Assembly (NCBI GenBank): GCA_022567055.1
Contig: JADFHU010000002.1
Span: 1-33,212, forward strand
From: Planctomycetota bacterium
Lineage (GTDB): Bacteria; Planctomycetota; Phycisphaerae; Sedimentisphaerales; Anaerobacaceae
Length of the DNA stretch: 33,212 nt
Direction: 5' to 3'
Shown: positions 5,701 through 27,653 of the stretch, piece after piece
Layout: every line of letters starts with the position of its first letter
Numbering within the stretch: position 1 is the first letter of the stretch
The notes under the pieces: model-generated
Database searches by the model: none
What the model was told of the DNA's origin: nothing
Seen by the model: only the letters and a program-made list of their open reading frames with translations
Program-made: the position numbers and the translations under genes

Positions 5701-5933
5701 AGGTGCCCCTGCTGGGGGATATTCCCCTCCTCGGGGCCTTGTTCAAACACAAGGAGTTGATTCAATCGAACACCGAACTCATTGTCTTCATCACGCCCCA
5801 GGTCGTCGGCGTGACAGAGGGCAGGGCCGAGAAGACAGCCGAGCTGATGCAAGAGCCCCTGGAGATACTCGGCGGCGTCGAGGCCCAGATGGATGAGATG
5901 TTTGAGCAGGAGGACGTCTACGACGATGACTAG
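2727..5933 (+). CDS. GspD-like secretin with expanded N-domain array
   Basis: 1068 aa from GTG with RBS agagagg at 2712-2718. Signal/TM start, N0-like module, repeated N1-like modules, C-terminal secretin motif (KVPLLGDIPLLGALFKHKELIQSNTELIVFITPQVV). Confidence 0.9.
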   Translation: MKRSKLFLMLCVLALSALMIWRIGFHDLQSSAQTILSLVRSAAAAEAPEADRADAEPNAATPAPKQATEEEKEEPSDPNSEQVTANTETPPAPADANEANSEAESEEEPLEALNLKDVEVKDLIEKLAKWTDKAIIPDEKVMKQKITIYAPHKVTRKEALALIYSALRTKGFVAEHTDNVIYLKPIDKAKLGQVPTVGSDEHLALFENKEQIVQKFFKLKNYSPSRMGEILAPLVGEYGDVSADEITGTVIVIDTVANLIRIKGVIAEFDVPEAEQSVSEVIQVHNGDPIEIVQLIRILMGGETPARPRSSSSSSRSSSSRGIIRFSPGGSRSSSSSKKSKPASSPIMGKSQVPIYLHAEPRRNWIIARASAQDMVVVKEWVQKLDVAEPVVSEYETVSVVYADAREVATRIESALAEMPGSALQPSILVRSLEQSRQILIIGRKDLREMVKKLIAEIDIPPGEFETKTFDLKYVDSTQIKENIDSLYGQEGPTGYNDYYYYRYGPGSQNNPGDMVKVIDFPMMQQVTVICAPVKMRRIEEQIEEWDQPLDVDEVKPRFVEVRNSDPQQIATLLTNLFSEDASSVNDFFRVYYYGDNSDSKKKIIGPLYGQLTFEHVPGTKKIIIISKIPEAYDVIIDLVRELDAAEMAEVPNVIRLKYADPEALAERLNALFNESGTNASIRFDRRGLSDMATGGGQGSDNQNNNNRNQNNNNNNNNDSDSYRPWWNEQRPGIDEEPISNVIGKVRFIPDTHSKSILVLAPPEFMENIENLVRELDVPGKQVLIKVVIVEVEHSSLTSLGVRLSSNPGAFPAVGESGVLALTQLTQLFTEGSAAAAARTTSPLSAVGTGTGSIVGGTADVYAMVDFLAKTVDAKILNQQSLWTKDNEEASFFKGDLVAFNAGSTVGTGGFSTQNIVFDRVGMWLQIRPSITPEDRVDMEIRVTLSQLKSETVNGQPVRGEMETTTKMIVENGETLMMAGILFQKDSHIALKVPLLGDIPLLGALFKHKELIQSNTELIVFITPQVVGVTEGRAEKTAELMQEPLEILGGVEAQMDEMFEQEDVYDDD
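4829..4880 (+). repeat. AAC/AAT trinucleotide-like tract encoding Asn-rich linker
   Basis: aaccagaacaacaacaatcgaaaccaaaacaacaacaataacaacaacaat, encoding NQNNNNRNQNNNNNNNN inside the secretin. Confidence 0.85.
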
Positions 5934-5978
5934 GGCCTGTGATCCTGCAGATCTTGCGTTTCATCTCTTCGGTCCTCT

Positions 5979-8900
5979 CTATGTGTGCGAGGCATGCTTT
6001 CGTTCCAAACGCTCTTCAATCCAAACGTAGACCGCGGGAATGACAAAGAGCGTGAGCAAGGTCGAGGTGGTGAGTCCAAATACCACAACCGTGGCCAAGG
6101 GGCGCTGCACATCGGCCCCGATGCCACGGGCCAGCAGCAAGGGCAGAAGGCCCAACACGGTGGTCATCGCGGTCATCAGAACCGGTCGAAGACGCAATAA
6201 TGCTCCTTCCTGCACGGCTTCGATGACCGATTTACCGCGCTTACGGAGATCATTGAAGTAGGTGACCAACACCATGCCATTCTGGACGGCGATGCCAAAT
6301 AGAGCGATAAACCCTACCGAAGCCGGCACCGAGAGATACTCGCCTGTCACCACCAATCCGATGATCCCGCCGATGAGCGCGAGAGGTACGTTGACGACGA
6401 TAATCAGGGCATGTCGCATTTGTCCGAACGACATCCATAACATCATAAATACCAGGCCAATGACGGTTGGAACGATGATGGACAATCGTTTCATGGCCCG
6501 CTGCTGGTTCTCGAACTGACCGCCATACTCAATGGTGTAACCAGGCGGTAGTTGCACCTGCTCGGAAATCCGCTTCTGGATATCGGATACGACACTGCCC
6601 ATATCCCGGCCACGGACATTCCCCTGGACAATCCAGCGTCGTTGGTTTTTCTCCCGATTGATTTGAAGGGGTCCGATCACCTGTCGCACCTTGGCGACCT
6701 GTGACAGCGGAATCACGTTTCCTTTGCTGGTTGGAACCAGGACGTTACCGATGGCTTCCGGATCAGTGCGATAGGCTTCCTGGAAGCGCATGTGGATCCC
6801 GAAGCGACGGGTGTTGAGATAGATGTAGTCGATGACTTCGCCGCCGATCGCCAACTCCACCATCTCCATGATCTTGCCGACCGTCACACCGTATCGAGCA
6901 CATGCCTCACGGTCGGCGACCACCTGGACCTGGGGTTGACCAAAGCTCTGTTCAATAGACAGGTCGACGAGGCCGGGAATGGTGTCAATCGCGTCTCGAA
7001 TCTCTTCTGATTTCCGGCGAAGCACATTCAAGTCCTCGCCGTACACTTTGATGGCAAGCTGGGCCCTGATGCCGGAGAGAAGTTCGTCGAAGGCATTCTG
7101 AATCGGTTGGGTGAAGTTGAGTTGCACGCCGGGAAACGGCTTTAGCTTCGCATTGAGACCGTTTATCAATTCCTCTTTGCTGCGATATCCTTTCCATTCG
7201 CGTAACGGTTTCAGTGTTATGTGTATTTCCGCATAGTTGACCGGATGGGGGTGGCTGCCGGCTTCAGGACGTCCAACGCGTGAAATGGTTTCCTCAACCG
7301 CGTCGAACTGCACAATCTCCCTCTCCATCTCCATGATGAGTTCGGTGCCCTTTTCAAGGGAGATAGAGGGCGCCATAGTCACACCGATGAGGATAGATCC
7401 CTCTTCTAGGGTGGGAATAAACTCCGTCCCCAAGAAGGGCACGACCGCCATACTGGCCATAAAGATAAGAAGAGCGGCAGCCATCACACCAAACTTCCAC
7501 CGCAGGGTAGCGGCCAGCAACGGTCCGTAGATCCCTTTCAGACCCCGTACCCATCTCAGCTCTCGGTACGATTGTTGTTTGAGCAGGAACAAGGACAGGA
7601 CCGGTGCAACGACGATAGCCACCCAGAGGGATCCGAAAAGAGCAAAGGCTATGGTGAACGCCATGGGCGAAAACATTTTTCCTTCCACCCCTTCCAGCGT
7701 GAACAAGGGCAAGAAAACGATGATGATAATGACGATGGAGAAGACAATCGGACGACTCACCTCGCGCGCCGCATCGCAAATAACCGTTGCCTTGCTCTTT
7801 CCTTGTTCTTTTCGCACGCCGAGATGTCGGAAGAGATTCTCGACCATGACAATGGCGCCATCGCCCAACATACCAATGGCGATCGCAATTCCCCCCAATG
7901 ACATCAGATTGGCGGAAATGCCCTGTACGCCCATGCCTAGCACCGCAACCAACGCACAAATCGGTAATGAAAGCGCTACGATGAAGGCGCTGCGGAGATT
8001 CCCCAGAAACAGCACCAGCGTCATGATGACCAGTAAGCCCCCTATGAGTAGGGATTTCTTCACTGTCCAGGTGGCCTCCCGGACCAGTTCAGCCTGTTCG
8101 TAGTACGGAATCAGCTCGACTCCCTCGGGAAGCGCTTTCTTGACTTGGTCTATTTTTTCATAGAGTCGATGAATCACATCAGAGGTGTTCTCACCGAAGA
8201 GCTTGAGAACCATACCGGAAACGACTTCTCTCTCGCCGTTGTGGGTAACCACGCCTCGTCGAATCTCATTGCCATATTCGATCTCCGCCAGGTCTGACAG
8301 CAGGACGGGGCGACCCTCCTCTTCCTTCACGGCGATGTTGCGGATGTCCTGGAGGTTCTCCACCAACCCAATACCTCGGACGAGATGCTCTTCGGATCCC
8401 AGCACAAGAAACTGACCGCCCACGTTGCGGTTGTTTTCAGTGACAGCGTCAACCAGATCTTTCAGTGTGAGATCATACTTCAATAACGCGTTGGGGTTGA
8501 CCCGAATCTGGTACTGCAGCACATGACCACCGATCGATAAAATGTCGGTCACCCCGGGAACGGTTTGAAGCTGAAACTTGACGACCCAATCGTTCAACTC
8601 TCGCAGCCAAGTGTCCACCTCCTTACCGTCCGTATCCACCTTCTCCGCGTCTGCTGTCAGATAGTAGAGGAATATCTGACCCAGTCCCGTAGAGATGGGA
8701 CCCAGGGCCGGTGGTTCATCCGTCTCCGGGAGTTCCGCCATGACACTCGATAACCTCTCGCCAACAAGCTGTCGGGCAAAGTAGATATCCGTAGTGTCTT
8801 TAAAGTACACATAAATCACGGCCATGCCGAATGCGGATGTCGACTTGATCTGTGTGACATCCGGAAGACCATTCATGGCCGACTCGATAGGGTAAGTGAT

Positions 8901-14641: not shown

Positions 14642-14685
14642 CTGACCCCCTAGGACAGCCGGCGCCGGCTGTCCTAGGGGGTCAG
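14642..14685. repeat. Perfect 44-bp palindrome (22-bp arms, no spacer)
   Basis: ctgaccccctaggacagccggc|gccggctgtcctagggggtcag. Confidence 0.95.
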
Positions 14686-20844: not shown

Positions 20845-20969
20845 ATGCGGCCTTTGGCTGGGGCCCGCGCCGGACAGGGCAATCGCATCTTACTTACGAT
20901 GACGGCACGACCCCTTTCTCGTCCTCTGCCACGGACCTCCGTAAGGCTTTGATCAGGAATCAGTGGCAA

Positions 20970-21009
20970 AGTAATCAGTTTTTCCAGCCCAAACCGATCA
21001 CTGATTACT
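20970..21009. repeat. 10-bp inverted repeat agtaatcagt...actgattact
   Basis: 20970-20979 and 21000-21009 with a 20-nt loop. Confidence 0.85.
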
Positions 21010-21032
21010 GCGTACTTGACCGTTCGGAGCTA

Positions 21033-21191
21033 AGAGCACCTACGCAAAATGAGTCTGCATTCGAGCGGCTTATTCTCCCTCTGGACGGCGTCAGGCTCCA
21101 TCGACCATCCTCGGATGGCCTGCTTCGCCTTCCTTGCCAGAGGCACGAAACGCTCGCTCTCGGTGCGACGATCATTTTGCGTAGGGGCTCT
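21033..21191 (-). repeat. 159-bp structured repeat element, copy 2 (E2)
   Basis: Terminal 20-bp inverted repeat (agagcacctacgcaaaatga / tcattttgcgtaggggctct, 1 mismatch). Interior in minus orientation: ccgagagcgagcg...ggcgaagcagg...tcgatg...taagccgctcgaa, shared with E1. Confidence 0.88.
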
Positions 21192-21381
21192 AAGATTCTT
21201 GGCGTCCCACACCCCAACGTGCTTGAACATGACACCAAGATGCGATTGCCCTGCTGTCCCGGAAGTTTGGTGTTGCACGCGCTCGCGCATGCCCCTAAAA
21301 TTCCGTATTTTGCTGGTGTTGTGGAATGACGACCAAGGCCCAGTTTGATGAACGCGCCCGAGGGGTGATGGGATCTGAGGC

Positions 21382-27133: not shown

Positions 27134-27209
27134 TAGCGATTGGGTGGCCTGTTAAGCTCGAACGCAATCTCAACGGAATACCCCTCGTTTTCCATCGCCT
27201 CCGAAGGGC

Positions 27210-27247
27210 AGTAATCAGTAATCAGTAATCGGTAATCGGTAGTCGGT
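27210..27247 (+). repeat. Heptamer tandem repeat (A/G)GTAATC, ~5.4 units
   Basis: agtaatc agtaatc agtaatc ggtaatc ggtagtc ggt. Confidence 0.9.
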
Positions 27248-27430: not shown

Positions 27431-27447
27431 TTGGCACACTCTTTGCT
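27431..27447 (+). promoter_or_regulatory. Putative sigma54 (-24/-12) promoter upstream of dnaK
   Basis: TTGGCACA-CTCT-TTGCT; GG and GC separated by the canonical 10 nt; near-complete match to YTGGCACG-N4-TTGCW. Confidence 0.55.
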
Positions 27448-27494: not shown

Positions 27495-27653
27495 GGCTCT
27501 ATCTGAAGACTCCGGCGTCGGCCCGAGAGCGAGCGATTTTTCGCCTGACAAAGACGGCGAAGCAGGCGATGTTGGTTCTATCGTCGATGCAGCCGGATGT
27601 AGTCAGGCGGAAAATAAGCCGCTCGAAGCCAGGTGGGGTTTTCAGATAGAGCC
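27495..27653 (+). repeat. 159-bp structured repeat element, copy 1 (E1), in the dnaK leader
   Basis: Terminal inverted repeat ggctctatctgaagactcc / ggggttttcagatagagcc (13 bp perfect, 19 bp with two G-U). Inner cgagcg/cgctcg and cgcctgac/gtcaggcg stems; conserved blocks shared with E2. Confidence 0.88.

Follow-up and report, generated by a model that had tools for sequence, protein, structure and literature searches.

Two unrelated nested MITEs in a planctomycete intergenic gap, the inner one with a hairpin core found across the Planctomycetota

The window analysed here, a stretch of 33,212 nucleotides from a Planctomycetota bacterium, corresponds to contig C777 in a draft assembly of 5.67 Mb (844 contigs, 90% complete). 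Between its orf727 and orf642 lies a gap of 537 bp. The genes upstream of this gap include one for a PilM-like pilus protein, and the nearest named relatives of the orf642 protein are found in Planctomycetota MAGs, often labelled Phycisphaerae or Sedimentisphaerales. A sequence-only reading of the gap had listed a set of nested inverted repeats without an intact transposase, and every repeat listed was recovered at its given position: a perfect 17-bp inverted repeat (20875–20891/21237–21253), whereas the longest that arose when the bases of the gap were shuffled 60 times was 14 bp; within it, a 10-bp inverted repeat (20970–20979/21000–21009); and a third pair, belonging to the element called E2, that extends over 23 nt at 91% identity (21030–21052/21172–21194) when the flanking TAA duplication is included, the TIR proper being 19 bp. 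A 6-bp dyad from the same description, TCTTGG (21197–21202) and CCAAGA (21235–21240), is also present in the sequence; it has no counterpart in an uninterrupted paralog of the outer element (on C534), dyads this short can be expected by chance, and it is probably a chance occurrence. The gap contains neither a transposase ORF nor a Pfam match, and comparing it with plasmid records gave no match. The features discussed below are collected in Table 1.

Table 1. Coordinates of the outer element X, the inner element E2 and associated features in the window
Feature	Position	Strand	Remarks
X left target-site duplication	20865–20874		CCGCGCCGGA, decayed; 7/10 identical to 21254–21263
X left TIR	20875–20891	+	perfect 17-bp inverted repeat with 21237–21253
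X left part, including one TAA copy	20875–21033	+	end-to-end alignment with 205–232 bp X paralogs
X internal 10-bp inverted repeat (heptad repeat)	20970–21009		AGTAATCAGT/ACTGATTACT
E2 target duplication, left TAA	21031–21033
MITE E2	21034–21190	-	157 bp, IS5-type TIRs, inside X
E2 left TIR	21034–21052	+	GAGCACCTACGCAAAATGA
E2 hairpin-forming core	21054–21174	-	covariance model, 128.8 bits
E2 right TIR	21172–21190	-	GAGCCCCTACGCAAAATGA; same end type behind IS5-family transposase gene in C190
E2 target duplication, right TAA	21191–21193
X right part	21194–21253	+	right TIR 21237–21253; C534 paralog aligns through junction without insert
X right target-site duplication	21254–21263		CTGTCCCGGA
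Promoter-like TTGCAC-N17-TAAAAT before orf642	21273–21301	+	read from sequence, 20 bp past insertion
E1, second element with same structured core, other TIRs	27495–27653	+	GGCTCTATCTGAA; upstream of dnaK

The outer element, X, spans 20875–21253 and measures 219 bp once E2 is removed. Its TIR pattern has 122 matches in the host genome at up to three mismatches, as compared with 8 for the reversed pattern (copy numbers given for this genome, G000, are lower bounds or pattern counts throughout); the paired ends mostly lie 205–232 bp apart, the copies align end to end, and the uninterrupted paralog on C534 (1256–1477) aligns across the E2 junction (74%). Almost every X copy has the internal heptad repeat, the number of ATTACTG units varying between copies. 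Short tandem AATCAGT/AATCGGT units like these heptads also occur at 27208–27246 of the window, with no X ends close by. Duplications flanking the copies of the family are perfect at 10 bp in 13 of 39 cases and at other lengths in none or one; for the window copy 10 bp is likewise the best-matching length, although this duplication has decayed.

Matching ends were found in a related genome (G039), which has complete ISAs1 elements (404.9 bits with NCBIfam NF033564, cut-off 70) with the TIR CAGGGCAATCGCATCTA, identical to that of X at 16 of 17 positions, and with perfect 10-bp duplications in three copies. X shares with these elements its TIR and a duplication length of 10 bp, as an ISAs1-family MITE should; it is assigned to the ISAs1 type by its ends and duplication length, the ISAs1 partner coming from another genome. 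In G000, no PF13808 match to an ISAs1 transposase was obtained at an E value of 0.001 (this draft being 90% complete, a source may be lost or unassembled), and no X-type end pair lies beside any of its PF01609 transposases. Elsewhere in the family, two X copies of a congener (L335 and L336; G001:C113:4546–4770 and 5793–6010) stand about 1 kb apart with their 10-bp duplications exchanged, while the matching place in the host genome carries a single X (L079, on C797); this looks like recombination between X copies.

When the genome was searched with the gap, at least 40 scored copies of the inner element, E2, 89–99% identical, were returned with matches that cover 21030–21195, and the left part, which belongs to X, had separate, weaker copies. 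The E2 TIR pattern gives 124 genome matches versus 2 for the reversed control. Identical 3-mers flank 27 of 34 copies (24 TAA, 3 TTA) and no identity extends to 4 bp or more; the duplicated TWA usually sits within C-TWA-R, and in the window both flanking triplets are TAA. E2 combines the features of a MITE: a length of 157 bp, 19-bp TIRs, no Pfam match, a 3-bp TWA duplication and many copies.

Ends of the E2 type also border IS5-family transposase elements. In this genome, C190 encodes an IS5-family transposase (182 bits with NF033580, cut-off 110) followed by an TCATTCTGTTAGGGGCTC end; the right end reads GAGCCCCTAACAGAATGA, and the left end is missing where the contig stops. Among the PF01609 transposases of this genome, that on C190 is the only one with an E2-type end. 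A complete IS5-type relative is present in another genome (G018), with the TIR GAGCCTCTAACRAAATGA and TTA on either side. The TIRs of E2 are related to the ends of both elements, which places E2 among IS5-family MITEs, the complete partner being that of G018 and the partner in G000 being truncated by the contig. From these ends, we infer that E2 is likely moved by IS5-type transposases. Several contigs of the host assembly, including C262, C692, C164 and C349, terminate at or near an E2 copy, probably because the repeat interrupted the assembly.

A comparison with close relatives gives the order of events. In a species of the same genus (G001, 91% protein identity), the corresponding gap measures 151 bp and the sequence continues uninterrupted, ...GGCCTTTGGCCGGAGTCTGACCGGGAAGTTTGG..., where the window carries X and E2, as established by visual inspection and pairwise alignment; the difference in length is explained by the 379 bp of X plus E2 together with the duplication. 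This empty site holds CTGACCGGGA in place of the X duplication CCGCGCCGGA, and in a second congener (G002) the insertion is likewise missing and the gap short. The search for an empty site in sister genomes that the sequence-only reading had proposed was thus positive, and its broader view of a region built of inserted repeats without a transposase is borne out. The site is polymorphic for E2 as well, the whole region being absent from G001. Since X is lacking there, it must have entered after the two lineages split, unless it was precisely lost in G001. The E2 of the window is up to 99% identical to other E2 copies.

In our reading, X, of ISAs1 type, inserted with a 10-bp duplication after divergence from the sister species, and E2, with its IS5-type ends, subsequently entered X at a CTAAG site and duplicated TAA. 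Both are non-autonomous and gene-less. Their ends would be recognised by a transposase encoded elsewhere, and both would move by excision followed by reinsertion with a fixed stagger; here the ends and duplications are observed, and the link to a transposase is deduced from them. The promoter-like motif before orf642 has counterparts in the relatives (TTGCAC-N17-TAGAAT in G001, TTGCAA-N17-TACAAT in G002), such that TTGCAM-N17-TANAAT is common to all three genomes; in a consensus scan it fell below threshold. Because this putative promoter lies beyond the insertion, at a distance of 20 bp, the insertion may have been tolerated.

Other origins of the gap have been considered. The nesting of the arms, and the good fold of the full 379 bp as single-stranded DNA (z -5.8), could indicate a single composite or foldback element, inner repeats included, that moves as a whole; a composite foldback element had been raised in the sequence-only reading. 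The inner parts do not move only as a unit, however: E2 is found by itself at 40 or more further sites and X by itself as 205–232 bp copies, the two differ in their TIRs and in the lengths of their duplications, and a second X+E2 unit was not found in the genome. Because X and E2 occur separately, this explanation is refuted, and we hold it to be very improbable; there are instead two independent MITEs that belong to different IS families and have separate TIRs and duplication lengths. A decayed gene in which the repeats are coincidental would account for the 126-codon frame that spans the gap, but this frame matches no Pfam family and crosses two repeats that are found elsewhere without it, and the entire stretch is missing in the sister species; we give this explanation practically no credence.

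The same reading had also suggested that the gap is a hotspot that attracts repeat insertions. Two insertions do lie within one gap, and further cases of E2 in X exist: at L130 (C589), E2 sits 23 bp from an X end, and at L375 (C469) there is a 5' E2 fragment. Such cases number two or three in all. Against this, congeners have no insertions at this place, and with ~35–60 X and 100–270 E2 copies in the genome, mostly intergenic, a few insertions of E2 into X would be expected; E2 inserts at CTWAG-like sites genome-wide, and the frequency of nesting would be about that expected from abundance. A hotspot is therefore very unlikely, and the claim is not upheld. We conclude with high confidence that the gap is occupied by two unrelated MITEs, E2 having entered X by an ordinary insertion of one MITE into another.

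The interior of E2 has a wider distribution than its ends. Its 120 nt form, on the minus strand, a single long hairpin whose internal loops are conserved, and an initial MAFFT alignment of 10 sequences already had double changes at 18 of the 34 pairs. A covariance model built from 10 sequences found this core in 27 of 150 genomes of the class, and a rebuilt model found it in at least 61 of 392 Planctomycetota genomes (nine candidates per genome scored). Among 50 sequences, 33 of the 34 pairs have compensatory changes and 94.8% of cells are paired; an independent phylum-level set of 29 sequences, of which most lie beyond the class and two had contributed to the model, gave 94.6% paired and covariation at 31 of 34 pairs, both alignments being fitted to the model and so leaning towards structure. 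As controls, none of 500 shuffles was as good, and slid partners pair in 27–50%. The core was rejected as a coding sequence, its lengths differing by non-multiples of three.

Elements with other ends, of very different TIR sequence, contain the same core, and of the distant copies examined for this, 89% have TIR-like flanks directly at the core; neither the IS5 nor the ISAs1 elements contain it. E2 is one family in a Planctomycetota-wide group of ~160-bp MITEs in which the core is constant and the TIRs change. Rfam gave no match at the gathering threshold for the whole window and none at an E value of 1 for the gap, and in the literature we found no paper on such MITEs in Planctomycetes. A second member of the group, E1, is present in the window itself: its core matches the covariance model at 27512–27633 (126.3 bits), and its end is separated by 41 bp from a dnaK-like gene (27695). 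Upstream of E1 there is a -24/-12 sigma-54-like sequence, TTGGCAC-N5-TTGCT (27431–27447), and E1 may therefore lie in the dnaK leader. At 14642–14685, the window also contains a loopless perfect 44-bp palindrome, CTGACCCCCTAGGACAGCCGGC and its complement.

Does the core matter as RNA or as DNA? At pairs dominated by Watson–Crick combinations, the alignment made from sequence alone has 64 GT versus 28 AC cells, an asymmetry that suggests one strand acts as RNA; the count of 107 GU to 16 AC on the model-fitted alignment was judged biased, and this one was used instead. In 42 of 48 copies, the better RNA fold is that of the model strand. By crude gene calls, 8 of 25 E2 copies and 21 of 28 distant ones have their RNA strand in the direction of the upstream gene, and in the window the RNA strand of the E2 core is antisense to the operon. 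On these data, the odds that the core acts as RNA seem to us about even. A hairpin that matters as DNA, whether as a cruciform or as a single-strand substrate in transposition or replication, would fit with its filling the entire interior between the TIRs, with the inconsistent orientation of the core relative to genes and with the position of almost all copies examined between TIRs; yet both the wobble asymmetry and the better RNA folding of the model strand speak against it, and IS5-type DDE transposases are not known to require single-strand hairpins. We consider a DNA role rather unlikely.

As an RNA, the core would most likely be a hairpin within transcripts that cross the element, and its structure would protect or regulate host transcripts, by analogy with what has been proposed for other structured bacterial MITEs. 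Tentatively, we suggest that the core may be a previously undescribed, Planctomycetota-wide structured RNA carried as MITE cargo, a hairpin selected as RNA whose terminal repeats have repeatedly been swapped to fit the available IS5-like transposase. Should the core prove to function as RNA, it would constitute a mobile RNA module and add a family to RNA catalogues, and its effect on host transcripts could be tested, for instance before dnaK. The X/E2 pair is in itself a clean, time-ordered example of MITE activity in an uncultured planctomycete lineage, and it does away with a false hotspot claim. The larger point is the constant structured core with changing ends: phylum-wide, the interior has outlived many sets of ends, in contrast to the common view of a MITE as the remnant of one IS.

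Like bacterial MITEs derived from ISAs1 and IS5, X and E2 are short, gene-less and multicopy, with a fixed duplication and with TIRs in common with an element that encodes a DDE transposase. The interiors of MITEs are usually remnants of the parent IS, whereas the structure of the E2 interior is conserved well beyond its TIRs. In this respect, a conserved RNA-like structure in a mobile repeat, E2 resembles bcr1 and other structured repeats of the B. cereus group, which are mobile, ~100–400 bp long and in some cases of conserved secondary structure (PMC2267715; PMC3446304; PMC6542083). bcr1 is described as MITE-like (Okstad 2004, cited in PMC2267715). Of the B. cereus bcr1–bcr18 copies, about half lie within transcripts (PMC3446304). 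The likeness is one of description: bcr1 moves with TTTAT motifs and occurs in a single species group, whereas the E2 core is phylum-wide and associated with many TIRs.

The NEMIS/Correia, RUP, ERIC and Nezha elements, most of which have a narrow host range, belong to phyla and carry TIRs other than those of E2. These MITEs are reported to be transcribed, to fold robustly and to stabilise or destabilise the adjacent mRNA (PMC3733652). REP/BIME palindromes (the GTAG and CGTC superfamilies) resemble E2 as numerous intergenic hairpins, and their reported hosts include Planctomycetes (PMC3733652); the E2 core happens to begin with UCGUCG at the foot of its hairpin. REPs, however, are tagged sequences of 20–40 bp, those of the GTAG type being associated with tyrosine transposases, whereas E2 is a 157-bp element with TIRs and a 3-bp duplication.
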